DNA of 64,000 bases. Source: Methylosarcina fibrata AML-C10 (lineage in GTDB: Bacteria; Pseudomonadota; Gammaproteobacteria; Methylococcales; Methylomonadaceae). Shown here piece after piece: positions 1,709-59,722 of this stretch; the first letter of the stretch is position 1; each line of letters opens with the position of its first letter. The notes beneath the pieces were generated by a model, which saw only the letters and a list, made by a program, of their open reading frames with translations, made no database searches and was not told the DNA's origin. The DNA lies in the NCBI RefSeq assembly GCF_000372865.1, contig NZ_KB889965.1, positions 1,509,902-1,573,901 on the forward strand, read 5' to 3'. The position numbers and the translations under genes are program-made.

Positions 1709-2296
1709 CTAGCGCGCGTTCCGGTTCATCAGGTTCCAGATCGAGCCCACGTCCGACCTCGGTATCGCTAAATAAAGCGTAATCGCAATCTGCTCGATCG
1801 CAGCCAAAAGGCAGATGACCGCCGCCGTCCGGAACGGCCAGGCAGGCCCGCCCAGGAACAGCACATACAAGGTCAGTCCCACCGATGCGGCCGCCAGCTT
1901 GACTCCCCACGTGTGATAGCTGGTCAGTTGCCCGAATTTGAGGAATCCGGCGATCGGGGGCAGCAGGAAGCTGGCGATGATGAAGCTCACGAACAGCGCT
2001 TCCCTCCGGACTATGTCGGGCCACAGCCACCAGCAGCTCACCGATATCGTTAAATAATTGACGATATCGGCCCAACTGTCGAGTTTCGCTCCGAAATCGC
2101 TGACCTGATGGGTCAGGCGGGCAACGAAACCGTCCAGCACGTCGGTCAGGAAAGCCACTGCCAATAAAGCCATAAAGGCGAAGCCGCGCCCGTTCCAGGC
2201 CAGCCACAACAAGACCGGCGCCGCGACGAAGCGGAATCCGGTCAGCAGGTTGGGAATGCTCATTCTGGATTGTTCAGAGTCGGTTTTGACGATCAT
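1709..2296 (-). CDS. CDP-alcohol phosphatidyltransferase family membrane protein
   Basis: Enzymes of this family transfer a phosphatidyl group from CDP-diacylglycerol, or a similar CDP-activated lipid, to an alcohol at the inner membrane. The signature D-x2-DG-x2-AR-x8-G-x3-D-x3-D is complete (DVLDGFVAR, then GAKLDSWAD). Several hydrophobic helices surround it, and 195 aa is typical of the family. The ATG overlaps the stop of the upstream phosphohydrolase gene (ATGA), which indicates translational coupling. It is the last gene of a three-gene operon with the EEP-fold and CarS-like genes. The acceptor alcohol cannot be read from the sequence, so pgsA, pssA or a special lipid are all possible. 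Confidence 0.88.
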   Translation of the reverse strand: MIVKTDSEQSRMSIPNLLTGFRFVAAPVLLWLAWNGRGFAFMALLAVAFLTDVLDGFVARLTHQVSDFGAKLDSWADIVNYLTISVSCWWLWPDIVRREALFVSFIIASFLLPPIAGFLKFGQLTSYHTWGVKLAAASVGLTLYVLFLGGPAWPFRTAAVICLLAAIEQIAITLYLAIPRSDVGSIWNLMNRNAR

Positions 2297-3045
2297 AATG
2301 CAAAAGAAGCTGCTAACGGCGCATGATCGGAGAGCATGCGCCAGGGTTTATGAGAAAGCCGTTCACAACTGATTGGAGTCAATCCGCGAAAATAAATTCG
2401 ATCCATCGGTAAGATCGGCAGCCAGGAAGGAAAGGTGCGGGCGTATCCGCCATGGGTCACGCGGAAGACTTCCTGCAAGCCGAGATGGTCGTGAAAAAAA
2501 GATTCGGCCCGCCCCATCCAGTCGTTGAAATCGCCCGCCACGATCAGCGGCGCGTCCCGGGGCACGTGGCTTTCGATGCGGTCGCACAGGCGGGTCAACT
2601 GCATGCTCCGCTCCTTGCCGGTCAAGCCGAAATGAATGCAGACGATATGCACTTCCGTTCCGCTTTTCGGGTCCTGAATGACGCCGTGCAATACGCTTCG
2701 GCTCGCCCAGGGATAGGGCGATACGTTGATGTTTTCCCAACTGACGAAAGGAAAACGGCTCAGGATGGCGTTGCCGTGATGGCCTGCGTTATAGACCGCG
2801 TTTTTCCCGTAAATATAGAAAGGCCAGAGCCCTTCGGCGATAAACTCGAACTGGGACAGTTTGGGCCAGTTTTCAATCAGTCTTTCATGATGGCGGTGCT
2901 CGCCCTGCATCTCCTGAAGAAACAGCAGATCGGCGTCGGCTTCCGCCAGGGCGTCGCGAATCTGATGCAGGACAAAGCTGCGGTTGCCCGGATTGAAACC
3001 CTTATGAACGTTATAAGATATCACCCGCAATCCTTTCTCTTTCAT
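2293..3045 (-). CDS. Endonuclease/exonuclease/phosphatase (EEP) family phosphohydrolase
   Basis: The EEP fold covers DNA nucleases, inositol phosphatases and sphingomyelinase-type phosphodiesterases. Visible motifs are ISYNVHKG near the N-terminus, FLQE (catalytic Glu), GNAILSRFP, VAGDFNDW and the closing SDHAPL (catalytic Asp-His). There is no signal peptide, so it is probably cytoplasmic. I chose the ATG at 3045. A GTG two codons upstream (3051) is possible. It lies between the CarS-like gene and the phosphatidyltransferase gene. That context suggests a lipid phosphodiesterase or phosphatase role rather than DNA repair, but this is inference. Confidence 0.85.
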   Translation of the reverse strand: MKEKGLRVISYNVHKGFNPGNRSFVLHQIRDALAEADADLLFLQEMQGEHRHHERLIENWPKLSQFEFIAEGLWPFYIYGKNAVYNAGHHGNAILSRFPFVSWENINVSPYPWASRSVLHGVIQDPKSGTEVHIVCIHFGLTGKERSMQLTRLCDRIESHVPRDAPLIVAGDFNDWMGRAESFFHDHLGLQEVFRVTHGGYARTFPSWLPILPMDRIYFRGLTPISCERLSHKPWRMLSDHAPLAASFAL

Positions 3046-3103
3046 CGGCACCCAACCTGTCTATTGACGATAGGCGAATCATAAACCGAATGATTTCCGC
3101 TGT

Positions 3104-3595
3104 CTAATAGGGCCGTTTTTTGATGCGCAGCCTATAAAGTATCGGGGAACCCCACTCCTCGATCAGTAAAAAGCCCATGGCGACCAGGGCGATATCGCTC
3201 CAGCTCAAGCCCAAAGCCTCTTTCAGCAATAATGACGGGAGCACCGATTCCGGCAGCGTGTCGAGCCCCCTGGCCCGGCTGCTTTCCTTCAGGTTCAAAC
3301 GCCGCTTGAGAAAACTTGACAGCAAATCGCCGAGCATGGCGTAGAGCGCAAACAGCGTACCGGTGGCCCATTCCCATCCGACCAGCCCGGAAGCGGCCAC
3401 GGTCATCGCGACGGAAGCCGCGAGCCCCCGCCACGTTTTGGCCCTGCCGAACAAGGGCCGGCCGTCCGGCAGCGCCAGACCGGCATCGATAGGCCCGGCA
3501 CAGCGTCGCCCCCATAGCCGGTCGGCCAGGACCGGAGCGCCGTTGGCGACGACCAACAGCATTAATACCTGAAACAGACATTCCCAACAAACCAT
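3104..3595 (-). CDS. CDP-archaeol synthase (CarS)-like membrane protein
   Basis: The protein resembles the CarS/DUF46 family, which activates lipid phosphate with CTP in archaea and has scattered bacterial members. Diagnostic stretches are PLFGRAKTWRG, a membrane helix ending in GDLLSSFLKRR, and RARGLDTLPESVLP, which match the conserved cytosolic loops of the family. It has several hydrophobic segments in 163 aa, a normal length. It is first in a minus-strand operon with the EEP-fold protein (52-59 bp gap) and the CDP-alcohol phosphatidyltransferase. This pairing of a CDP-lipid maker with a CDP-lipid user suggests a dedicated lipid branch. The substrate in a bacterium without archaeal lipids is unknown. 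Confidence 0.78.
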   Translation of the reverse strand: MVCWECLFQVLMLLVVANGAPVLADRLWGRRCAGPIDAGLALPDGRPLFGRAKTWRGLAASVAMTVAASGLVGWEWATGTLFALYAMLGDLLSSFLKRRLNLKESSRARGLDTLPESVLPSLLLKEALGLSWSDIALVAMGFLLIEEWGSPILYRLRIKKRPY

Positions 3596-3673
3596 AACCG
3601 ACTATCGAGCGAATTCCCGGAATTTCTTAGCCTATCCTAAAACCCGTCCGTTAAAGAAAAATTTCAATATCGC

Positions 3674-4974: not shown

Positions 4975-5070
4975 TGTAATTTTCTAAATTATTTGGCGCA
5001 GATTTTTTGGCATTATTTGGCGCCTCAGGATTCGACTCTCTTGCCTTGGGTGTAGCAATAGAAAAGACCT
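4975..5070 (-). repeat. Outer left transposon end with fragment of a second resolvase gene
   Basis: The sequence is homologous to 8587-8655. It has the same TIR, the same stop region and codons for a degenerate resolvase C-terminus (FYCYTQGKRVES against FYRYTQSKKVEN). It keeps two copies of ATTATTTGGCGC (4988-4999 and 5012-5023), 24 bp apart. The inner end has only one. Homology stops at about 5070. Confidence 0.8.
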
Positions 5071-5322: not shown

Positions 5323-6195
5323 TTAAAGAGTGGATAGACTGGCAAGCAACGCCTTAATGTCGGTTTTTTTGCGGCTTTGCGGCAAGCCGATGGCATAAAT
5401 CTGGCGGCTGATTTCAGGATTGGCTAAATAGCGGCACTGCACGTCCTGAGCGTTCAAAGGCAGCGTATACTCCGGCATCAATGCGACGCCAAGGTCGGCG
5501 CGAATCAGATTAATGATCCAGTCTTCGCTGTTGCTTCGGTAAGAAGCGTAGAGGTTGATCTCTTGATCCTGGCAGACTGCCTTGAGTTTTTCCCTTAATT
5601 CGCAGTTGAGCCGATCCAGATACGGTTCTGTCTGTATTTCTTTCAAGTCTATCCGGGACAGGCGATTAAAGCGGTGGTTGCTGTGAAAAGCCACGACGTA
5701 GCGTTCCGTATAGAGTAGCGTTGATTGATAAGGCGGCGCCAAGAGTTGAGTCGGGGCGCTGATCACCACATCCAGCAAATCCGCTTCCAGTTGCTTCAGC
5801 AAATCGGTCTCAGTGCCGATAATCAGTTCAAATTCGATATTGGGGAATTCTTGCCGGTAATGGGCAAAGACAGGACCTAACCGTTGTGCGCCTACGGTTT
5901 CCATCATGCCTATCCGCAGCGGAACACTGTTCAACCGGGTAAAGCGGATCGCATCGGCTTTGGTGGCCAAGGTTTCTTTGTATATTTTCCGTAAATTAGG
6001 CTCGACCATTCGGCCGAGGGGAGTCAGTAAGCATCCTGAACGGTCCCGCGTGAATAATTCACCGCCTAATTCATCCTCCAGTTTTTTGATGGCCTGGGTC
6101 AACGACGGCTGGGATATATAGCTGAATTGCGCGGCGCGGGTAAAACTGCCATGATCGCAGACAGCCAAAAAATAACGGATTTGGTGCAGTTCCAT
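5323..6195 (-). CDS. LysR-family transcriptional regulator (transposon cargo)
   Basis: A DNA-binding regulator of 290 aa, normal for the family. The N-terminal winged helix-turn-helix is clear (HQIRYFLAVCDHGSFTRAA, then ISQPSLTQAIKKLEDELG). A periplasmic-binding-protein-like effector domain follows from about residue 90. It is divergent from the EthD-like gene at 6320, with a 124-bp shared promoter region containing a perfect T-N11-A type palindrome at 6216-6230. This is the standard arrangement for a LysR activator of the adjacent operon and of itself. The effector is unknown, probably a metabolite handled by the three genes next door. Confidence 0.9.
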   Translation of the reverse strand: MELHQIRYFLAVCDHGSFTRAAQFSYISQPSLTQAIKKLEDELGGELFTRDRSGCLLTPLGRMVEPNLRKIYKETLATKADAIRFTRLNSVPLRIGMMETVGAQRLGPVFAHYRQEFPNIEFELIIGTETDLLKQLEADLLDVVISAPTQLLAPPYQSTLLYTERYVVAFHSNHRFNRLSRIDLKEIQTEPYLDRLNCELREKLKAVCQDQEINLYASYRSNSEDWIINLIRADLGVALMPEYTLPLNAQDVQCRYLANPEISRQIYAIGLPQSRKKTDIKALLASLSTL

Positions 6196-6215
6196 AAGTG
6201 CTCGCTCCGATCATT

Positions 6216-6230
6216 ATAGTTAAAAACTAT
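6216..6230. promoter_or_regulatory. Putative LysR operator (T-N11-A palindrome)
   Basis: ATAGTTAAAAACTAT is a perfect 15-bp palindrome containing the LysR-type core T-N11-A. It lies between the divergent lysR (start 6195) and the EthD-like gene (start 6320), close to the lysR start, where an autoregulatory recognition site is normally found. Confidence 0.55.
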
Positions 6231-6319
6231 TCTTTCATAGACAGTTTGTATTTTACAATCCTTATATTTCAATCCTATCATACTCCACATCATAAACAAA
6301 TGCTATGAAAGGAGAGATT

Positions 6320-6646
6320 ATGAAAGCGGCAAAATTAATAGTCATGTATCCCACACCATCCGATGTGGCCGTGTTCGAACGCCGCTATGCACAGGAACAC
6401 GTGCCGATGGCGGTCGAAAAACTGGCCGGAAAAATTCGTTTTGACGCCAACTTGATTACCTCGGCACCGGGACGGGAGCAGGCGCCTTATCACCGGATCG
6501 CCGAAGTGTATTTCCCCTCCATGACGGCGTTGGAAGACTGCCTGATGTCACCCGGTGGTCAGGAAACGGCGGCGCATGCGGTCGAAATTTCGAGCGGGGG
6601 GGCGCCTTTGTTCCTGATTGCAGAAGTCGAAACCTTCGTTTTTTAA
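6320..6646 (+). CDS. EthD-like (dimeric alpha-beta barrel) protein
   Basis: A small protein of 108 aa resembling the EthD family, whose members accompany oxidative catabolic enzymes but mostly lack a defined reaction. The pattern is typical: KLIVMYPTPSDVAVFERRYA, EHVPMAVEKLAG, then a strand-rich half ending in FLIAEVETFVF. I chose the ATG at 6320 because AAAGGAGAGA lies just upstream. The ATG at 6305 has no ribosome-binding site and overlaps that sequence. It is the first gene of the cargo operon under the LysR gene, followed after 32 bp by the AhpD-like gene. Confidence 0.75.
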   Translation: MKAAKLIVMYPTPSDVAVFERRYAQEHVPMAVEKLAGKIRFDANLITSAPGREQAPYHRIAEVYFPSMTALEDCLMSPGGQETAAHAVEISSGGAPLFLIAEVETFVF

Positions 6647-6678
6647 GCGGACTACCAGGGATTATTCCAAGGGCTCTT

Positions 6679-7209
6679 ATGTCTTACCTGCCTTCAAATC
6701 CGGAGATGGCCACGCTGGCCGAATTATTGGCTCAATATCCCCGAAGCGGCATCCTGTTGTGGAAGCTGTTGGAAAACGTCAAGGCGAGTTTTTCGCCGCA
6801 AGACCGCGGGATGGGTGAACTGCTGATCGCCTACATCTCGGGACTCAATCAGTCGGCGTTCTGCTATGAGGTGCATAAGCGTTCAGCCATGCAATTAGGG
6901 GTTGAAGCGGTCGTCTTCGGCCAATTAAAAGTCGACATCGACAGGGCGAATATGGAGACGAAATTAAAGCCGATCCTGCAGTTTGTAAAAAAACTGACAT
7001 TAACCCCGCAGCTGATCTCTCAGGCGGATGTTAAGGCCATTTTTGAGGCAGGGTGGGACGAACGCCGCTTTCTTGACGCAATTTGCCTGTGCGCGGTTGT
7101 CAACTGCATGAATCGGCTGGCCATAGGGATTGGCATCGATCAAACAATATCCGACTCGCCAACGCTGTTGTCTGTGACCAGGCTGGTACGGGTCGGCCTC
7201 CTTCATTAA
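6679..7209 (+). CDS. AhpD-like / carboxymuconolactone decarboxylase-type protein with an altered active site
   Basis: All-helical protein of 176 aa that fits the AhpD-like (peroxidase-related) superfamily: GMGELLIAYISGLNQSAFCYEVHKRSAMQLG. Members normally carry C-x-x-C ahead of the histidine. Here the first position is Ser (S-A-F-C-Y-E-V-H), so only one active-site Cys is visible. A disulfide-based peroxidase cycle would need another partner, or the protein does something else. A second cysteine pair (DAICLCAVVNCMNRLA) lies in the C-terminal helix. It sits between the EthD-like gene and the esterase gene in an apparent operon. Confidence 0.7.
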   Translation: MSYLPSNPEMATLAELLAQYPRSGILLWKLLENVKASFSPQDRGMGELLIAYISGLNQSAFCYEVHKRSAMQLGVEAVVFGQLKVDIDRANMETKLKPILQFVKKLTLTPQLISQADVKAIFEAGWDERRFLDAICLCAVVNCMNRLAIGIGIDQTISDSPTLLSVTRLVRVGLLH

Positions 7210-7249
7210 TTGTTTCTTTTGACTGCGATCAACCGACGAGGTGAAGTCG

Positions 7250-8362
7250 ATGAGCACGCTCCTCCTGTTCTTTTTTAGATTATTGATTATTTCAGCGCCC
7301 GTGGTTTTGTTGGTGGGTTTGTTCAAACCCGAATGGCTTAGGTGGCGCAGCAAACAGCCGGACCCCCTGATGACTTTCGTGTTGGCTGCAGGTCTGTTCA
7401 TGGCGGGTTTTACCGGAGCGAGCAAAACCTACTTTTCCGCCGATGAAGAGGTTGTGGAAGCGGCTAAGGAAGATGTGATACCGGCGGCCGCAGACTATAC
7501 GGATCGCCTCGCTGCGGCAGGCTGTCAACCTGGCTCTAAACCGGGCCCGGCCGGCGCCAGCGACGAGGAAGAAACAGATGACGGCATTCGTTTTTCGGTC
7601 AGGACACCCACCAATTATAAAGATACCATCGCCCATCCTTTACTGGTGGTGTATGCGCCGGCCGGCAGGGATCGGGAAGAAGCCGAAGCATTTACCCATT
7701 TGACCCGGGAAGCCACGGCGGCAGGCTTTATTGTCGCGTATGCGGATCACCGCAGGTTATCGCCTGAAGAGGCGGTGCGTCTGGCCCAACTACCCAAAGC
7801 GGTTGAAGAAAAATGGTGCATCGACAGTAAGAGGGTTTTTCTGACCGGACACTCCGACGGCGGCACAACCACGATGGCTATCGCCTTTTTCAACGGTACC
7901 AAGCATATACCCGCCGCCATCGCACCGAGCGCGGTAGGCATCCGTGGGGATGATCTGACAGACCGCAATTGTGTGAAGCCCATACCGGTCATGCTGATGC
8001 ACAGCCGCCGCGACAAGCTGTTCCCGAATTATGGAAAAGAAGCGATTGAATGGTGGGCGAACTGCAATAAATGCGCCACCAAAAAGTACAACCTGGAGGA
8101 CCGCAAATCCTTATCCGGCAAGCCCATGCGCTGGGAAAGCTATTATCGGCACGAACTTGAACAAAAAGCCAAAGATCTGAAAATCGGCCAACCTTTACCC
8201 AATACCATTCCCGTCCAAGGCGTAGAAGGGTGCGTGGCTTACAGCGGCTGTAAAGACGGCGTGCAAACCTGGTATTGCGAAGGCAGCGGCCCGCATCCCG
8301 AATGGCCGGGTAGGAATAAAGCGATGATCGAGTTTTTCAAAGCCGTGAAAACCGACAGGTGA
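7250..8362 (+). CDS. Membrane-anchored alpha/beta hydrolase, PHB-depolymerase/feruloyl-esterase (LpqC-like)
   Basis: Serine esterase of about 370 aa. The N-terminus has two hydrophobic segments (LLLFFFRLLIISAPVVLLVG and VLAAGLFMAGFTGA) that anchor it in the membrane. The catalytic domain carries the nucleophile elbow GHSDGG (Ser about residue 202), a candidate acid in SRRDKLFP and a terminal His in GPHPEW. Several cysteines (NCNKC, GCVAYSGC, YCEG) suggest disulfides and an exported catalytic domain. Start at 7250 (ATG) is preceded by GAGGTG. The GTG at 7241 lies inside that site. Substrate unknown; polyester or aromatic ester is plausible. Confidence 0.78.
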   Translation: MSTLLLFFFRLLIISAPVVLLVGLFKPEWLRWRSKQPDPLMTFVLAAGLFMAGFTGASKTYFSADEEVVEAAKEDVIPAAADYTDRLAAAGCQPGSKPGPAGASDEEETDDGIRFSVRTPTNYKDTIAHPLLVVYAPAGRDREEAEAFTHLTREATAAGFIVAYADHRRLSPEEAVRLAQLPKAVEEKWCIDSKRVFLTGHSDGGTTTMAIAFFNGTKHIPAAIAPSAVGIRGDDLTDRNCVKPIPVMLMHSRRDKLFPNYGKEAIEWWANCNKCATKKYNLEDRKSLSGKPMRWESYYRHELEQKAKDLKIGQPLPNTIPVQGVEGCVAYSGCKDGVQTWYCEGSGPHPEWPGRNKAMIEFFKAVKTDR

Positions 8363-8586: not shown

Positions 8587-8612
8587 TGTAATTTTCTACA
8601 TTATTTGGCGCA
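8587..8612. repeat. Inner (older) left transposon end
   Basis: TGTAATTTTCTACATTATTTGGCGC is the inverted copy of the right end at 11800-11824, directly after the resolvase stop codon. Compared with the outer end at 4975 it lacks 24 bp between two direct repeats of ATTATTTGGCGC, so only one subterminal motif remains. The bases just outside do not match the CCCACC beyond the right end. This end was therefore not used in the last transposition. Confidence 0.75.
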
Positions 8613-9176
8613 TCAGTTTTCGACTTTCTTGCTTTGGGTGTAGCGATAGAAAGTGGTTCTGGCAATGCCCAGTGTCTTGCAGATCGCCGCGACACTCTGG
8701 CTGGGGTCGTCCCGCAAGGCCTGGGCCATGCGCCGTTTATCTTCACTGAGCAACCTCGGTCGTCCGCCCTGTCTCCCGCGCGCTCTGGCGGCCTTGAGGC
8801 CTGCGCGGGTACGCTCCCGGATCAGGGTACGCTCAAACTCCGCCAGGGCCGCGAAGATATGGAAGACCAACTTCCCTCCGCTCGTGGTCGTATCGATGGC
8901 TTCGGTGACGCTCTGAAATCCAACGCCCACGGTCTCGAGCTGCTCAACCGTTTCAATCAGGTGCTTGAGCGAGCGGCCAAGCCGGTCCAGCCGCCAAACC
9001 ACGAGGGTATCGCCAGGGCGCAACGCTTCGAACAGGCGAAGCAGCTCCGGCCGGTCCACTTTGCCGCCGGATTCCTTTTCTTCGTATACGCGCTCGCACC
9101 CCGCAAGCCGAAGGGCATCTCGCTGCAGATCGAGGTTCTGATCATCGCTGCTGACCCGTGCATAACCGATTTTCAT
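8613..9176 (-). CDS. tniR: Serine recombinase / resolvase (TniR/BinL type)
   Basis: Site-specific recombinase of 187 aa that resolves cointegrates formed during replicative transposition. N-terminal catalytic motif GYARVSSDDQNLDLQ carries the nucleophilic Ser (residue 9). Also present are VWRLDRLGRSLKHL, FERTLIRERTRAGL and a C-terminal helix-turn-helix (SVAAICKTLGIARTTFYRY). It lies downstream of tniB with a 155-bp gap that probably holds the res site. A fragment of another copy is found at 5025-5070. Confidence 0.9.
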   Translation of the reverse strand: MKIGYARVSSDDQNLDLQRDALRLAGCERVYEEKESGGKVDRPELLRLFEALRPGDTLVVWRLDRLGRSLKHLIETVEQLETVGVGFQSVTEAIDTTTSGGKLVFHIFAALAEFERTLIRERTRAGLKAARARGRQGGRPRLLSEDKRRMAQALRDDPSQSVAAICKTLGIARTTFYRYTQSKKVEN

Positions 9177-48682: not shown

Positions 48683-49574
48683 CGTCGTTGTTCCTGCTTA
48701 TAATAGAGGGGAATTTTTGCATAAGCTGTTAGATTCAGTTTTTAAACAAACTTACCAAAACTTTGAGTTAATTATTGTTGATGATGGTTCTACTGATAAT
48801 ACCAGAGACTTAATAAAATCAAATCAAGACGCCAGAACTAAATATATTTATCAAGATAACGGTGGCGGCTCTAAAGCACGGAATACTGGCATTGATGCTG
48901 CCCAAGGTTATTATATTGCTTTCCTGGATTCCGACGATGCATTTATGCCAAATCACCTAGAAAATGCATTAACTGTTTTAGAATCAGGCGACAATCTTTG
49001 CACCTATACACAAGTTATCGTCGATCGTGGCGACGGTGTGACATTTCTTAAACCACCACGCGCATTAAATCCTAATGAGCCTATCTCGGATTATTTAATG
49101 CGCGATAGGGGATTTATACAAACAAGCACTCTGATCGTACCAGCAGAACTTGCAAAAAAAGTTAAATTCAATGAAGAAATCAGCTTTGGTCAAGATACCG
49201 ATTTCGCCATACGGTTAGCAAGCGCCGGTGCAGAATTTCGCATGCTGCCTGAACCTGGGGCAATTTGGAATGATGAATGGAACCAAAACCGTCTATCGAG
49301 TAAACGTAAACATGAGCAGCGGATACTCTGGCTAAACAAAATCAAGCCCATGATCACCAAAAAAGCTTATTGGGCCGACATGGGATGGCATGTTGCCAAA
49401 GGATTCGCTCAACATGGCGAACTATTCAAAGCGCTTAATCTTTATTTGAATGCCGTGGTTAGAGGCAGCTATCGCCTAAAAATGGCAATCGTTGTTTTCT
49501 TGCAGGTAGTGCTGTCCGCTAACGCCTACCGTAAATTGGCTGATTCCCTTGCTCGTTTTGGAGTTGCGCCTTGA
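48660..49574 (+). CDS. GT2-family glycosyltransferase
   Basis: A transferase of about 304 aa. YSVVVPAYNRGEFLHKLLDS, ELIIVDDGSTDNTRDLI and the metal-binding IAFLDSDDAFMPNHLENALT are classic GT2 motifs. I start it at ATG 48660, overlapping the polymerase gene by 23 bp, because homology begins there. Its stop overlaps the TTG start of the GH10-like gene. Confidence 0.9.
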   Translation: MVHQVKYSVVVPAYNRGEFLHKLLDSVFKQTYQNFELIIVDDGSTDNTRDLIKSNQDARTKYIYQDNGGGSKARNTGIDAAQGYYIAFLDSDDAFMPNHLENALTVLESGDNLCTYTQVIVDRGDGVTFLKPPRALNPNEPISDYLMRDRGFIQTSTLIVPAELAKKVKFNEEISFGQDTDFAIRLASAGAEFRMLPEPGAIWNDEWNQNRLSSKRKHEQRILWLNKIKPMITKKAYWADMGWHVAKGFAQHGELFKALNLYLNAVVRGSYRLKMAIVVFLQVVLSANAYRKLADSLARFGVAP

Positions 49575-50920
49575 CCAAAAGTATCCAGCAAATTTTCGTG
49601 CTATTGTTCGTTATTTCAGCCGTTCTATTGGTAATGACCACTCAGGCCGCCACCTATGAAGGCCGCGAACCCGATGCGGAATGGCGGAAACAAGCCAACC
49701 AGAAGATAGAGGCTAATCGAAAAGCTGATGTCACCGTCATTGTCTTGAACAAAGACGGCAATGCAGTTGAAGGTGCCCAGGTTCGAGTCGAAATGACCCG
49801 CCACGCCTTTCCTTTCGGTGCGGCAGTAGGCGCCACACGGTTAATGTCCAAAGGAGACGATTCCGACCGCTATAGAGAACTTATTTCCAAGCGATATAAC
49901 AAAGTCGTTTTGGAGAATGACTTGAAATGGGATCAATGGGATCAAAGCAAGATTAATCCAGCCGGCAGTAAATATTATTATCCGGAGACAATGGCCGCCC
50001 TCAAATGGCTCAGGCAAAAGAATATCCAAGTTCGCGGACATTATATAGGTTGGGGACCGGTGGAGCGACTGGAGACCTACAAGAAATATAAAAACGATTC
50101 AGATGCGTTTCGCAATGCGCTCTTCAATCACATAAAGGAAAAAATTCCCCGAGTGGGTGATCTGGTGAGCGAGTGGGATGCTGTCAATCATCCCATTGGC
50201 TGGAGTGAACAGCTTATTACGTTAGGGAGTATGTATGGTCAAGGCATCTATGTCGATATTTTCAAACTGGCTGGAGAACTCAATCCTCACGCTCGACTTT
50301 ATGTCAATGAAGGCAGTCTTCTGCCGACTGCGAAGTACAATCAGACCATGCGTGATAACTATGCCAAGCTCATCCGTTTTCTTCTCGACAGCGGAGCGCC
50401 TTTGGGCGGAATAGGCTTCATGGGGCATTTCGATCACGATAAGTTGACTCCGCCCTCGAAACTTATACAAATCTTCGATAGCTTCGCTGCATTCGGACTG
50501 CCTCTGCAGGTGACCGAGTTCGATGTGCGGTTCGGCAAGAAGGGTGAGCCCTACGATTTTTCCGATGATGAGCTTCAATTGCAAGCCGACTACACCCGCG
50601 ACTTTATGACGGCGGTGTTCAGCCATCCGGCGGTAGAAGGCATCGTCATGTGGGGATTTTGGGAAGGTGCCCATTACAATCCGAGCGCCGCTTTATATCG
50701 CAAAGACTGGTCGATCAAACCCAATGGCAAAGTCTGGGAGGATCTGGTTTTTAAGCAGTGGTGGACGGATGTGCATGGCAAAACCGATGCAGACGGCACT
50801 TTTAAAACCCGCGGTTTCTTGGGAGAGTATGAAATTACCGTCGAACATCAAGGCAAAACGCTTACTCAATCAGTCCGGCTGCAGAAAGGCGGCAGCAAAA
50901 TTACCGTTACTCTTGAATAA
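49571..50920 (+). CDS. Exported GH10-fold (xylanase-like) protein with the acid/base Glu replaced
   Basis: A 449-aa protein with signal peptide ([20 protein letters not shown]), a small beta domain and a GH10 barrel ([55 protein letters not shown]). The nucleophile is kept (Glu about residue 316 in VTEFDV). At the acid/base site the family has N-E, and here it reads WDAVNHP (His about residue 207). Normal xylanase activity is therefore doubtful. TTG start overlaps the upstream stop, so the gene is operon-linked. It may bind, trim or transglycosylate the polysaccharide. Confidence 0.82.
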
Positions 50921-54928: not shown

Positions 54929-55900
54929 ATGAACCAGGACACCCGTTTTTTTGTCGCCGGCCATCAGGGCATGGTGGGTTCGGCCATTTGCCGGCAATTG
55001 CAGGCGCAGGGTTATCATAACCTCATTACCCGCACCCGCGGCGAACTCGATCTGCTCGATCAGCAGGCGGTCCGCGATTTCATGCAGCAAGAAAAGCCGG
55101 AGTACGTGATCCTGGCGGCGGCAAAAGTCGGCGGCATTTACGCCAATAACGAGTATCCGGCCGACTTCATTTATGAAAATTTGATGATCGAGGCCAACGT
55201 CATCCATCAGGCTTACCTGGCCGGCTGCAAGCGCCTGTTGTTTCTGGGCAGTTCGTGCATTTATCCGAGACTGGCCGACCAGCCGATGACCGAATCGTCG
55301 CTGTTGACCGGCACGCTGGAGTCGACCAACGAGCCGTATGCGGTAGCCAAGATTGCCGGCATCAAGCTGTGCGAATCCTACAACCGACAATACGGCATCG
55401 ATTACCGTTCAGTGATGCCGACCAATCTGTACGGACCTCACGATAATTTTCATGCCAAAAACAGTCACGTGATCCCTGCCCTTTTGCGCCGCTTCCACGA
55501 AGCCAAACTGGCGAATCTCGCCGAAGTGGAAGTCTGGGGCACGGGCCAGGCCAAACGGGAATTTTTGTACGTCGAAGACATGGCGGCCGCCAGCCTGCAC
55601 GTGATGCGGCTGAACTCGGTCACCCTCGCGAAACATACCCATCCGATGCTGTCCCATATCAACATCGGCACCGGCAAGGACATTACGATCCGGTCGCTGG
55701 TTGATGAAGTGGTGCGGGTGACCGGTTATCAGGGCCGGGTCATCTGGAATACCCAAATGCCCGACGGCACGCCCAGAAAATTGATGGACGTTTCTCGCCT
55801 TGAATCCCTGGGCTGGAAATACCGTACCGAACTGCCGGAAGGTTTGCAATTGACTTACCAATGGTTTTTGGAAAATCAGGATCGGTTTCGGGATTCCTAA
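54929..55900 (+). CDS. fcl: GDP-L-fucose synthase
   Basis: Epimerase-reductase that completes GDP-L-fucose synthesis. [18 protein letters not shown] (NADPH binding), [20 protein letters not shown], the catalytic Tyr-x3-Lys in [19 protein letters not shown] and [20 protein letters not shown] mark Fcl/WcaG. 323 aa. Coupled to gmd with AAGGAG before the ATG. Presence of both genes predicts fucose, or a related deoxysugar, in the polymer. Confidence 0.95.
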
Positions 55901-55975: not shown

Positions 55976-56030
55976 ATGTTGGCAAGGGATGCAATGTTTC
56001 TGATTCAGAATATAGCTGAAAACTCTCTTG

Positions 56031-56148
56031 TGCCGGACGGGACATGCCTCCCGTCCGTAATCTTTGATGGTTTTGGCATTCAGGATGATTCGAGCGGGTA
56101 TGCAGTTTTCAATCGTTTGGGACGGGATTATACCCCCCCGCCCCGCTC
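56031..56148. repeat. ~115-bp repeat, copy 1
   Basis: Starts TGCCGGACGGGACATGCC with an internal hairpin CGGACGGG/CCCGTCCG and ends with a second GC-rich hairpin (GACGGGATTATACCCCCCC). Copies at 56765 and 57552 share the same order of motifs, including GGATGATTCGAGCGGGTATG in copies 1 and 2. Confidence 0.75.
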
Positions 56149-56180
56149 AGAGTAAAAAAACAATTCAACAGGAGCCAAGT

Positions 56181-56449
56181 ATGCCTACGATCAGTATGTT
56201 TTATGGCATTTTAGTATCGATGTATTTGCTTGATACGCAAAAACATCATTCGCCGCATATTCATGTGCGTTATGCTGAATTTAAAGCGTCTATCGAAATA
56301 CCTTCAGGTAATGTACTGGAGGCAGTTTGCCTGGCAAACAAATGAAGTTGGTTCAGGCTTGGATTGTCTTGCATGCCGATGAACTGATGGCTGACTGGGA
56401 ACTTGCCGTTTCCGGTGAAACTCCTTATAAAATCGACCCACTGCGCTGA
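56181..56449 (+). pseudogene. DUF4160 protein gene with a frameshift
   Basis: The start is clear (MPTISMFYGILVSMYLLDTQ, KHHSPHIHVRYAEFKASIEI), preceded by AGGAGCC. The frame stops at 56343. In another frame the expected second half follows (GSLPGKQMKLVQAWIVLHAD, ELMADWELAVSG) with a stop at 56447. One lost base near 56318 accounts for it. DUF4160 is nearly always paired with DUF2442, as here, and the pair is suspected of being a toxin-antitoxin-like module. Confidence 0.72.
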
Positions 56450-56461
56450 AACGTTTATCTT

Positions 56462-56701
56462 ATGACACCCGATATCATTGCCGTTAAAGATTTGGCTAAT
56501 TATGAATTGCTTGTCACTTTTGCCGGCGGAGAAAAGCGTCGTTTTTCCATGCGCCCATATCTTAACTACCCCGGTTATCAACTATTAAGGCAACCCGGAA
56601 AATTCCAGTTAGCGCACGTGTCGAATGGCACGGTGGCTTGGTCCGAGGATGTCGATATATCGCCTGATACGTTGTATATCAAAGGAGAGCCTGTTCTGTG
56701 A
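56462..56701 (+). CDS. DUF2442 domain protein
   Basis: A 79-aa protein: DIIAVKDLANYELLVTFAGG, EKRRFSMRPYLNYPGYQLL, then GTVAWSEDVDISPDTLYIKG. This is a standard DUF2442 sequence. It follows the DUF4160 gene by 12 bp. Intact, unlike its partner. Confidence 0.82.
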   Translation: MTPDIIAVKDLANYELLVTFAGGEKRRFSMRPYLNYPGYQLLRQPGKFQLAHVSNGTVAWSEDVDISPDTLYIKGEPVL

Positions 56702-56764
56702 CGCAGCACGCAATTAACCGACGCAAGGCAGCACCCATGCTTAGTGCAGGAATCGACACGCCTG

Positions 56765-56883
56765 TGCCGGACGGGACATGCCTCCTATACGTAATGTTTG
56801 ACGGTTTTAGCATTCAGGATGATTCGAGCGGGTATGCAGTTTTCAAACGTTTGAGACGGGATTGCTATCCCCGCCCTGCTTGA
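56765..56883. repeat. ~115-bp repeat, copy 2
   Basis: Very similar to copy 1 at 56031. It separates the DUF4160/DUF2442 module from the YefM/YoeB module. Confidence 0.75.
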
Positions 56884-56962
56884 GTTATGGCAAGGAGGTA
56901 AACAAGAGGGCATGCGCGAAGACAGGCGGGAGGACTGATAATTGTCCCCGTCTATTTGTTTA

Positions 56963-56981
56963 TGTACAATATGTCTGTACA
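56963..56981. promoter_or_regulatory. YefM operator (two TGTACA hexamers)
   Basis: TGTACA at 56963-56968 and again at 56976-56981, 16 bp before the antitoxin start. Paired TGTACA palindromes are the known binding sites of YefM-YoeB, so this module is probably autorepressed. Confidence 0.7.
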
Positions 56982-56996
56982 AATAATGGAGGTATT

Positions 56997-57278
56997 ATGA
57001 CAATTGAAACCACTTATAGCCAAGCGCGCGAGCAATTGAAAACGTTGATGGATCGCGCTGTGGATGATCATGAGGTGATTGTTGTGCGGCGCAGGAGCGG
57101 AGGGGCAGTCGCCATGATTGCGGCGGACGAACTTGAAAGCTTGCTGGAAACCGCACATTTACTGCGTTCACCCAAGAATGCGGAACGCTTGCTGACGGCA
57201 TTGGCGCGGGCACGGTCGGAAAACGTGGCGCCGATATCGCTTGCAGACCTTGAGCAAAAGCTGGGGATCGATGAGTAA
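56997..57278 (+). CDS. yefM: YefM/Phd-family antitoxin
   Basis: A 93-aa DNA-binding antitoxin that represses its own operon and blocks YoeB. TTYSQAREQLKTLMDRAVDD, EVIVVRRRSGGAVAMIAADE and LESLLETAHLLRSPKNAERL are typical. ATG 56997 has GGAGG 4 bp upstream. It overlaps the toxin start by 8 bp. Confidence 0.92.
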   Translation: MTIETTYSQAREQLKTLMDRAVDDHEVIVVRRRSGGAVAMIAADELESLLETAHLLRSPKNAERLLTALARARSENVAPISLADLEQKLGIDE

Positions 57279-57540
57279 CAGCGACCGCGTCGCTGTTTTT
57301 CATCCGGAATTTCTGGAAGACTTGCAATATTGGGTTGAAACTGACCGGCGCGTCGCCAAGCGCTTATTGGAACTTGTGAAAGCTGCGTTGCGCGCTCCCT
57401 TCGACGGCATTGGCAAACCCGAACCGTTAAAATATTTGGGACCGGAGGTGTGGTCCCGGCGTATCACGCAAGAACACCGCTGCGTTTATTTGGTCAAGCA
57501 AGACCGCATTGAATTCTTGCAGGGGCGTTATCACTATTAA
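57271..57540 (+). CDS. yoeB: YoeB/Txe-family mRNA interferase toxin
   Basis: Ribosome-dependent RNase of 89 aa. The C-terminal signature is complete: PFDGIGKPEPLKYLGPEVW, SRRITQEHRCVYLV and the final RYHY with the catalytic His-Tyr. Its start overlaps the antitoxin stop (ATGAGTAA). No defect visible. Confidence 0.93.
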   Translation: MSNSDRVAVFHPEFLEDLQYWVETDRRVAKRLLELVKAALRAPFDGIGKPEPLKYLGPEVWSRRITQEHRCVYLVKQDRIEFLQGRYHY

Positions 57541-57551
57541 CAATACTTCTA

Positions 57552-57667
57552 CGCCGGACAAGATATACATCCCGTCCGTAATGCTTGGAGGATAGGGAAC
57601 TCAAGATAATCCGGGAGGTCGGCAGTCTTCAAACGTTTGCGGCGGACTTGTCCCCCTGTCCCGTTCG
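57552..57667. repeat. ~115-bp repeat, copy 3 (diverged)
   Basis: Keeps CGCCGGAC at the start, CCCGTCCGTAATG, CAGTCTTCAAACGTTTG and a GC-rich end. It is more diverged than copies 1 and 2. It lies directly after yoeB. Confidence 0.6.
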
Positions 57668-57681
57668 GAATTGAAGTTTTA

Positions 57682-58312: not shown

Positions 58313-59722
58313 ATGGGACTCAGAGGATTAGCCAAAGAATACGCATTTTATTTAAACTTGATCGCCCGCGTCATAGATGCAACATTGGTCTTTGTTGCAG
58401 GCTATCTGGCCTACTATCTGAAGTTTGGACTATCCTTGCTTTTGAATAGCGATTACAGCTCCGCAGTGATGGTGCAAATTTTGTTAACGTCCACCCTCTT
58501 TCCGTTTTTCGGCGTCTATCAATCCTGGCGGGGTAAAAATCTGACGGAACAGCTGTTTACAGTGATCAAAGCGTGGGGATTATCCTTTTTAATTTTAATC
58601 GCAATCGGAGCCTTATTTAAAAATAGCGAGGCCTATTCCAGAGAATGGCTGATTTACTGGGGCACTTATTGCTTAGTCCTGTTGCTGGGTTCCAAGCTGT
58701 TCATCTATAAAGTGATGCAGTCGATCAGAAAAAACGGAAGCAATGAACGGCGCGTGGTGTATATAGGTTCCGTAGAATCGATAAAAAAAATGCATCAGCG
58801 TATCGAGCACTCGACCTGGACCGGTTTTAAAAGCGTGGCCGGCGTCTCGCTCTATGAAGCGGATCGGGATAAGAAATTGCCCATCCGGCATGTGCACGGC
58901 TTGAACAACCTGAAACAGGCCATCAACGATTGCCGGCCGGATGAAGTGTGGGTTGTCACCCATATTACGGATCTGGAAATCGTCGGAAAGGTCAACAGCC
59001 TGCTGCATAATTGCACGGCCAATATCCGGTACATCCCCGACTTAAGCGATACCAAACTGTTTAATTATCCTTCCACTCAATTTCTCGGCATGTTGTCGTG
59101 GGAAGTCAGCGTCACGCCTCATACCGAAAGCCGCTACTTGATTAAATGGCTTGAAGATATCTTGCTGGGCACCTGCATTTTTATTCTGCTGACGCCTTTA
59201 ATGCTGTTGATTGCTCTCGGCATAAAAATCACTTCGCCCGGTCCGGTCTTGTTTAAACAAAAACGGCACGGCTGGAACGGCAAGATCATCAATGTCTATA
59301 AATTCCGCTCCATGCACGTTCATCAGGAAGCGGAAGGGACGGTTACCCAGGCGACCAAAAACGATCCGAGAGTCACCAAATTCGGCGCCTTTCTAAGACG
59401 AACCAACCTGGACGAACTGCCGCAGTTCTTTAATGTGTTGCAAGGACGATTGTCGATTGTCGGCCCAAGGCCTCACGCCTTGGTGCACAATATGGAATAC
59501 AGTGAAAAAATCACCGAATACATGCGCCGGCATAAAGTCAAACCGGGAATCACCGGTTGGGCTCAGGTGAACGGCTGGCGCGGCGAAACGGACACACTGG
59601 AAAAAATGAAAAATCGCGTCGAATGCGACTTCTATTACATTCACAACTGGTCGATCTGGCTGGACTTTAAAATCGTGCTGCTCACTGTGTTGCGTTCCTT
59701 TGTCGATAAAAACGCGTATTGA
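58313..59722 (+). CDS. Initiating undecaprenyl-phosphate sugar phosphotransferase (WcaJ-like)
   Basis: Starts repeat-unit assembly by loading a sugar phosphate, probably glucose-1-P, onto undecaprenyl phosphate. 469 aa: N-terminal membrane helices (VIDATLVFVAGYLAYYLKFG and others), a CoA-binding-like middle domain and the C-terminal bacterial sugar transferase domain (GPVLFKQKRHGWNGKIINVY, KFRSMHV, LRRTNLDELPQFFNVLQG, RLSIVGPRPHA, KPGITGWAQVNGWRGET). GAGGAAAT precedes the ATG. It lies at the end of the EPS locus, apart from the glycosyltransferases. Confidence 0.94.
   Translation: MGLRGLAKEYAFYLNLIARVIDATLVFVAGYLAYYLKFGLSLLLNSDYSSAVMVQILLTSTLFPFFGVYQSWRGKNLTEQLFTVIKAWGLSFLILIAIGALFKNSEAYSREWLIYWGTYCLVLLLGSKLFIYKVMQSIRKNGSNERRVVYIGSVESIKKMHQRIEHSTWTGFKSVAGVSLYEADRDKKLPIRHVHGLNNLKQAINDCRPDEVWVVTHITDLEIVGKVNSLLHNCTANIRYIPDLSDTKLFNYPSTQFLGMLSWEVSVTPHTESRYLIKWLEDILLGTCIFILLTPLMLLIALGIKITSPGPVLFKQKRHGWNGKIINVYKFRSMHVHQEAEGTVTQATKNDPRVTKFGAFLRRTNLDELPQFFNVLQGRLSIVGPRPHALVHNMEYSEKITEYMRRHKVKPGITGWAQVNGWRGETDTLEKMKNRVECDFYYIHNWSIWLDFKIVLLTVLRSFVDKNAY

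Follow-up and report, generated by a model that had tools for sequence, protein, structure and literature searches.

The window, a stretch of 64,000 nucleotides from Methylosarcina fibrata AML-C10 (contig NZ_KB889965.1, positions 1,509,902 to 1,573,901), contains within its exopolysaccharide (EPS) locus three direct repeats of about 115 bp, here named R1, R2 and R3, which alternate with two small toxin-antitoxin (TA)-like modules. In the gap at 55.9–58.3 kb the order is R1, DUF4160/DUF2442, R2, YefM/YoeB, R3, and all three repeats lie on the + strand. In the same bacterial family, direct repeats on both sides are far more common for TA-like modules than for control positions. With modest confidence, the window is read here as TA-like modules that inserted with a long target duplication, the duplicated target being a repetitive extragenic palindromic (REP) dimer.

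The alternation of repeats and modules was proposed in an earlier note made from the sequence alone (the original prediction), and searches with R1 and with Pfam confirm it. With R1 as the query, the source genome (4.98 Mb, two contigs) returns R2 at an E-value of 2e-36 and R3 at 5e-8, and the other 12 of the 15 matches listed at E ≤ 10 are scraps of 14–21 bp. The likeness of the three repeats is thus not due to chance. R1 and R2 are 89.0% identical over 118 aligned columns, R1 and R3 70.9% (117 columns) and R2 and R3 67.5% (117 columns). The YefM antitoxin and YoeB toxin genes overlap and are organized as one operon, a predicted type II TA system. The second pair had also been described as a module, and both Pfam domains are indeed present; however, the DUF4160 frame is broken, its halves are in different frames, and the second half (PF13711, E 2.8e-4) falls below the curated cut-off. 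By Pfam both modules are ordinary, and they are unusual only in the bracketing and in the broken DUF4160 copy. As had been stated, the block stands between the sugar transferase gene and the remaining EPS genes; this holds in this genome.

Direct repeats around TA-like genes

Genes for YoeB or DUF4160 in the same bacterial family were analyzed for bracketing, defined as a repeat pair of at least 40 bp and at least 80% identity with one copy on each side of the gene within 1.3 kb. The two modules of the window were left out of the 94 distinct genes, and genes near a contig end were excluded (L180, L185 and L186 of 30 YoeB loci, L237 and L256 of 30 DUF4160 loci, and also L335 and L339). Sixteen of the 94 are bracketed, and the pair is direct in all 16. 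The first set of genes gave 10 of 55 (5 of 27 YoeB and 5 of 28 DUF4160). The second set, for which the rule was already fixed, gave 6 of 41, which corresponds to 6 of 39 distinct new genes, as two of the 41 (L088 and L319) duplicate first-set genes (L244 and L241) and none of these is bracketed. L323 was counted as two genes; counted by locus, with the duplicated genes still in, the second set gives 5 of 40.

Two controls were used. Tiles were placed in stretches of the same genomes that had not been selected for repeats; of 40 such stretches, 36 were long enough to give tiles, and bracketing is seen at 8 of 960 positions (7 direct). Among small open reading frames (ORFs) it is seen at 2 of 132. 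Fisher tests give p values of 1.9e-12 against the tiles and 2.3e-5 against the small ORFs for all genes, and 5.7e-6 and 0.0020, respectively, for the second set alone (6 of 39); the control tiles overlap, so the p values are rough. The eight tile hits form six repeat clusters in five stretches; one is inverted, and one is in a coding region with internal repeats. A few of the control stretches themselves contain DUF4160 genes. Leaving out L262, where the repeats look attC-like, gives 15 of 94 and a p value of 1.7e-11.

Two TA-like gene pairs that are also bracketed were encountered by chance in the control stretches: L265 holds a HicAB (HicA-containing) pair and L291 an AbrB/PIN-like one. Neither coincides with any of the eight counted tiles. 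The notion that the control hits are themselves TA modules is wrong for the eight counted tiles, L265 and L291 not being among them.

Origin of the repeats and arrays of modules

The bracketing repeats differ from locus to locus. In L259 a DUF4160 gene, which carries a stop, sits between ruvA and ruvB, and the repeat consists of the gap before ruvB together with the first nine ruvB codons. In L261 the repeat is the ftr start, and in L234 it is the 3′ end of a neighboring gene of 458 aa. In L349 and L357 the repeat likewise comes from a 3′ end, of an Eco57I-type methylase gene and a methyltransferase gene, respectively. The loci L234, L259 and L261 are among the 16 bracketed cases; L349 and L357 were fetched for their TA genes and stand outside the 94-gene test. 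By eye, the repeat in L187, L188, L315 and L323 is or contains an element like a REPIN (a REP dimer), L181 shows a small element with inverted ends, and the repeats of L262 are attC-like although they fail the strict attC rule. Repeats made of the end of a host gene are most simply explained as duplicated target DNA.

Similar alternations of repeats and modules occur in relatives. L323 (G026:C96:1-7500) has seven repeats of 56–168 bp, 90–95% identical to the first and in one orientation, which lie between two-gene modules; these are PIN-type pairs (with partners that have no Pfam match), two DUF4160/DUF2442 pairs and one DUF4926 pair. This array ends at an AAA ATPase gene. Of its 14 junctions, 11 have the repeat edge within 0–15 nt of the closest start or stop codon, and the other three have it 66–75 nt away. 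In L344 three repeat copies are found around a DUF4160/DUF2442 pair and a nucleotidyltransferase pair, and L242/L351 and L353 display similar repeat-module-repeat arrays. L224 (G033:C55:1-9000) shows a row of YoeB/YefM-like and HicB/HicA-like modules with three copies of another repeat of about 75–180 bp; the protein names here were read from the sequences, and one YoeB was also found by Pfam. The homologue of the window's YefM/YoeB pair (77% and 78% identity) lies in the L224 array, where the repeat is of another kind. Homologous modules are thus found beside different repeats; the repeat is apparently no part of the module. A Y1-transposase-like fragment is also present in L224.

The ftr junction appears to be a shared landing site. 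In the window's own genome a DUF4160/DUF2442 pair (L336, G000:C1:3955300-3961400, at about 2644–3193) is flanked by ftr on one side and by an amidohydrolase gene, probably fhcA, on the other. The combination of these two genes suggests a methylotroph. At the same junction G027 (L261) has a DUF2442 gene, an antitoxin/RelE-like pair and a DUF4160/DUF2442 pair between two ftr starts, and G010, G036 and G059 have DUF4160/DUF2442 with a pair read as DUF433/DUF5615. The names of the partner genes at this junction were read from sequence.

These observations can be put together as follows. A single REP dimer of about 115 bp, composed of two inverted units, would originally have been present between the epimerase and sugar transferase genes. 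The YefM/YoeB pair would have entered first and the dimer would have been copied to its far side, giving the R2/R3 lineage, the copies of which are now about 67–71% identical. DUF4160/DUF2442 would have entered later with a second copying of the dimer (R1/R2, 89%). The repeats would then be copies of the landing site; the modules would not have brought them along as a recombination site. Successive copying of the dimer would explain why six of the 10 REP units detected in the genome are found here, why the full R1 sequence is found only here, why all the repeats are direct and why R1 and R2 are the closest pair. Throughout the family, TA-like modules may insert with long target duplications (about 40–170 bp) of whatever DNA is present at the site. 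The duplicated copies could then allow RecA-type recombination to exchange, stack or delete modules, and arrays may form in this way without an integrase.

The original prediction had suggested a repeat-mediated system for gathering small gene modules. The excess of bracketed TA genes (16 of 94 against 8 of 960) and the arrays in L323, L344, L351, L353 and L224 speak for a part of this. However, the repeat differs between loci and no dedicated site is seen. Because it differs, and because in several loci it is duplicated host DNA, the repeat is better regarded as something that insertion leaves behind and recombination can use than as a specific gathering machine. That interpretation is thus partly supported.

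Several observations weigh against a long target duplication. All coding differences between the copies are synonymous in L261 (4 of 4) and L259 (3 of 3). Such a pattern is easier to reconcile with divergence of the copies in separate lineages than with a single duplication and later decay. The two ftr starts in L261 differ at 4 of 18 codons and the upstream copy agrees with the ftr of the window's genome at all four; in L259 3 of 9 ruvB codons differ between the copies. The copies in L349 and L357 differ in amino acids too. From the synonymous cases it would seem that one copy underwent divergence in another lineage, where it belonged to a functional gene, and came in together with the module; exchange between strains or species, as judged from these codon differences, is likely to be part of the process. 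An empty site in a sister strain was not seen, the 60 other genomes compared all being outside the window's genus. The duplicated block in the window is about as long as a REP dimer, and dimers are found spread alone in G010 and G036. Most of the TA genes (78 of 94) have no bracket by the rule used, and none of the five that come from the window's own genome has one; the R2/R3 pair at 67.5% would itself be missed by the 80% rule.

A looser first test (E ≤ 1e-3, no minimum of length or identity) also counts on this side: it gave 7 of 28 for YoeB against 18 of 114 positions in stretches chosen mostly for their REPs, a difference that is not significant (p 0.27). In the other sets of this test the numbers were 0 of 17 positions in the own genome, 5 of 60 low-copy positions and 14 of 30 PF01797 loci. 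Because the rule and the control were changed after this result was seen, the second gene set is the cleaner test. Finally, one control hit, L281 (2057–2338 and 2335–3582), shows a duplicated host-gene start beside REP-like repeats with no TA gene between the copies, so that gene starts can be duplicated in the absence of TA genes as well. Confidence in the duplication reading is slightly lowered by L281 and by L265 and L291, which lie outside the counted control hits. In the L281 segment itself (G010:C1:3000001-3020000, at 1946–3641), REP-like repeats of 81 bp enclose the duplicated start of a membrane-protein gene.

The REP family and competing explanations

The window repeat belongs to a REP-type family. 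The unit has the form AACGTT-NN-GGACGGG-loop-CCCGTCC, and each repeat of about 115–120 bp consists of two units that face inward. A BLAST comparison of one repeat with 101 genomes gave short pieces in six relatives (E ≤ 0.001). A covariance model of 23 aligned units has 85.3% of cells paired and a covariation score of 0.225 versus 0.114 in shuffles, the alignment having been built around the hairpin and hence being biased toward it. The model, which was built partly from these same units, detects both units in R1, R2 and R3. The proposal of a hairpin at both ends of each repeat is thereby borne out at the level of the family and the model but less well by single folds, where R1 alone is somewhat more stable than shuffled sequences (z −1.75; R2 −0.11, R3 +0.54). 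The R2 and R3 hairpins look decayed. Rfam gave two weak matches, each under its gathering score.

The genome-wide search proposed in the original prediction finds the full R1 sequence at the R1–R3 positions only. At E ≤ 4.5e-5 the own genome displays 10 units (150 of 1629 first-look candidates scored): six in R1–R3, two in one further inverted dimer (L089:14758-14853, G000:C1:2940757-2940852) and two singles. Matches to the family are present in 25 of 61 genomes, the window's own included (E ≤ 0.01). G010 and G036 have at least 107 and at least 108 units, respectively (109 candidates scored in each). Of the elements sampled, 74 of 76 are not inside an ORF of at least 100 aa. Most of those sampled from G010 and G036 are inverted dimers, and near-identical dispersed dimers of about 115 bp are present there. 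In these two genomes (e.g. L090 and L109) a longer repeated segment often encloses the REP dimer, and dimers with other flanks show sharp ends, CTTCTGC...GCTAGGG.

This distribution could mean that ordinary, REPIN-like REP dimers and TA modules came to share a permissive intergenic region, the dimers by independent insertions, and that their alternation is a coincidence helped by a common preference for gaps between genes. The presence of the family in 25 of 61 genomes, the intergenic position of nearly all the sampled elements and the spread of near-identical dimers in G010 and G036 are in accord with this. TA-like genes are also modestly more common near the elements. Among 88 small ORFs within 500 bp of the 76 elements (57 loci) about 5–7 are TA-like (HicB, PemK, CopG antitoxin, DUF5615, UPF0150 and two HTH_3), as compared with one ParE-like and one HTH_3 among 150 far ORFs, the latter counted in the 25 of 46 families listed. 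The far-ORF control consists of 150 of 174 ORFs, 24 having been dropped by a size limit. A sample of 25 elements drawn from low-copy relatives (22) and the own genome (3) has 66 ORFs nearby, which include YoeB, HicA and PIN once each among the 25 of 43 families listed. However, six of the 10 units detected in the own genome are concentrated here, the 40-bp spacer shared by R1–R3 is found nowhere else in the genome, the repeats all have the same orientation, and brackets at L234, L259, L261, L349 and L357 are made of host-gene ends and not of REPs. Independent insertion of dimers is considered rather unlikely.

A preference of this REP for TA genes is not strong. A match to the R1 unit is present at one of 30 YoeB loci in relatives (L192). 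The original prediction had it that the repeat would not be spread at random through intergenic regions; the family is in fact dispersed, and few of the sampled copies are beside a TA-like gene. Copies flanking other TA-like pairs, which had also been anticipated, are few for this REP, while other repeats do bracket TA genes. A role of the repeat as a dedicated site for TA modules is ruled out by the single YoeB locus and the dispersal of the family.

It is also conceivable that two REP dimers served as the ends of a composite element and that a REP-associated tyrosine transposase (RAYT) moved the TA module between them. The REPIN-like brackets seen by eye in L187, L188, L315 and L323 would agree with this, as would the eight PF01797 matches of the own genome, seven of them above the cut-off. 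No strong match to the R1 unit, however, was found in the eight own and 30 relative PF01797 loci fetched, the best score being 18.5 bits (L148), and the bracketed pairs have differing repeats, some of which are host-gene ends. Such a composite element is improbable. In the own genome, weak PF01797 (RAYT-like) genes in L039, L040 and L041 are flanked by other palindromic repeats, some of them of the GTAG type by eye. In L038 (G000:C1:456311-459634) the 3′ end of a Y1-type transposase gene is repeated just downstream after a GGTCAGGTCTTGCAA-type motif, which resembles a long duplication.

The alternation of repeats with small gene pairs also recalls an integron cassette array, in this case one with unusual attC sites, and integron-like cassettes with attC-like repeats are seen by eye in relatives (L342 and L262). 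The original prediction had noted the absence of attC boxes and of a nearby integrase, and both statements hold. The attC ends RYYYAAC...GTTRRRY are present in none of the three window repeats; this strict rule found L342 but missed L262. Integrase and transposase families are absent from the matches (E ≤ 1e-5) of the 10 flanking proteins at 46.0–63.7 kb. In addition, the homologous YefM/YoeB pair lies beside a different repeat in L224. The integron reading is thus largely refuted and is given very little credence. In L342 (G014:C25:138000-144200) the integron-like cassettes are at 658–2040, and a DUF4160 gene lies outside them.

Relation to known systems and features of the locus

Insertion with long target duplication is already known for restriction-modification (RM) genes, where the duplication is of the order of 100 bp (PMC3874152, accessible part, citing Nobusato 2000 and Furuta 2010). 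The present case is alike in that addictive gene pairs without a transposase of their own are flanked by direct repeats of what would be target DNA. Direct repeats of that order flank the modules in the window (R1–R3), and 16 of 94 other genes have direct repeats on both sides; in five loci of relatives (L234, L259, L261, L349 and L357) the repeats are host-gene ends, and in the window the repeat is itself a REP dimer. The present case differs in that the cargo consists of TA-like pairs, the reports, as far as the accessible part of PMC3874152 goes, being concerned with RM systems only, and in that several modules share a site and are set apart by copies of the presumed target.

The accessible part of PMC7167474 calls the route of TA integration unelucidated, and that of PMC2701414 notes that a HEPN-MNT module has undergone recent insertions or deletions. 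In PMC2654758, as far as its text was accessible, long target duplication appears only as a paper in the reference list. No description of long target duplication or of cassettes with flanking repeats for TA modules was found in the literature covered, which lay mostly outside subscription journals.

The window repeat resembles REP dimers, REPINs and bacterial interspersed mosaic elements (BIMEs) as these are described in the accessible part of PMC3733652 (see also PMC3116915), being an inverted pair of short palindromes, intergenic and of high copy number in relatives. However, the conserved inner motif beside the stem is AACGTT, and neither of the end tags GTAG and CGTC, by which REPs are classed (PMC3733652, accessible part), is present. 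Moreover, copies in the own genome are few, and no RAYT gene flanked by this REP was found in the PF01797 loci searched. Integron cassette arrays similarly alternate repeats of about 100 bp with small gene units, often TA; here the repeat differs from locus to locus.

It is tentatively proposed, with rather less assurance than the reading of the window itself, that TA-like modules of the family spread without a transposase or integrase and that the site duplications of 40–170 bp are general recombination handles by which modules from different strains are stacked into cassette arrays, as in the seven repeats of G026:C96 and the different kinds of module at one ftr junction. If true, addiction modules would be gathered without any integrase, and the question of how TA genes come to lie in chromosomes would have an answer. 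The landing-site repeats would represent a direct and countable trace of insertion, and the sequence would show how long the duplication was, what the target was, in which order the events took place and which lineage was the donor. The entry of TA genes into chromosomes would then be testable by genome comparison and in laboratory strains.

Table 1. Repeats, module genes and flanking genes in the window (window coordinates)
Feature	Position	Strand	Details
Repeat R1, inverted REP dimer	56025..56155	+	units 56030-56067 (-), 56109-56148 (+)
DUF4160 gene, broken frame (56181-56345 and 56342-56449)	56181..56449	+	Pfam PF13711, E 1.1e-10 and 2.8e-4
DUF2442 gene, DUF4160 partner	56462..56701	+	Pfam PF10387, E 1.1e-11
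Repeat R2, inverted REP dimer	56759..56885	+	units 56764-56801 (-), 56843-56881 (+)
YefM/Phd antitoxin gene	56997..57278	+	Pfam PF02604 (PhdYeFM), E 1.5e-16; 77% identical to L224:3336-3620
YoeB toxin gene, ATG overlapping yefM end	57271..57540	+	Pfam PF06769, E 2.4e-32; 78% identical to L224:3607-3876
Repeat R3, diverged inverted REP dimer	57545..57672	+	units 57551-57588 (-), 57629-57666 (+)
Flanking EPS gene, NAD-dependent epimerase	54929..55900	+	Pfam PF01370
Flanking EPS gene, initiating sugar transferase	58313..59722	+	Pfam PF02397, E 7e-68

The epimerase gene upstream of R1 is presumably GDP-fucose synthase-like. A plasmid search gave one distant YoeB match, and a search for related loci with the sugar transferase gave one distant contig. 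Elsewhere in the window, two direct repeats of about 61 nt (85% identity) at 4975–5064 and 8587–8652 lie 3.6 kb apart around ORFs at 5326–8359, and a glycosyl hydrolase family 10 gene is found within the EPS cluster at 49571–50917.

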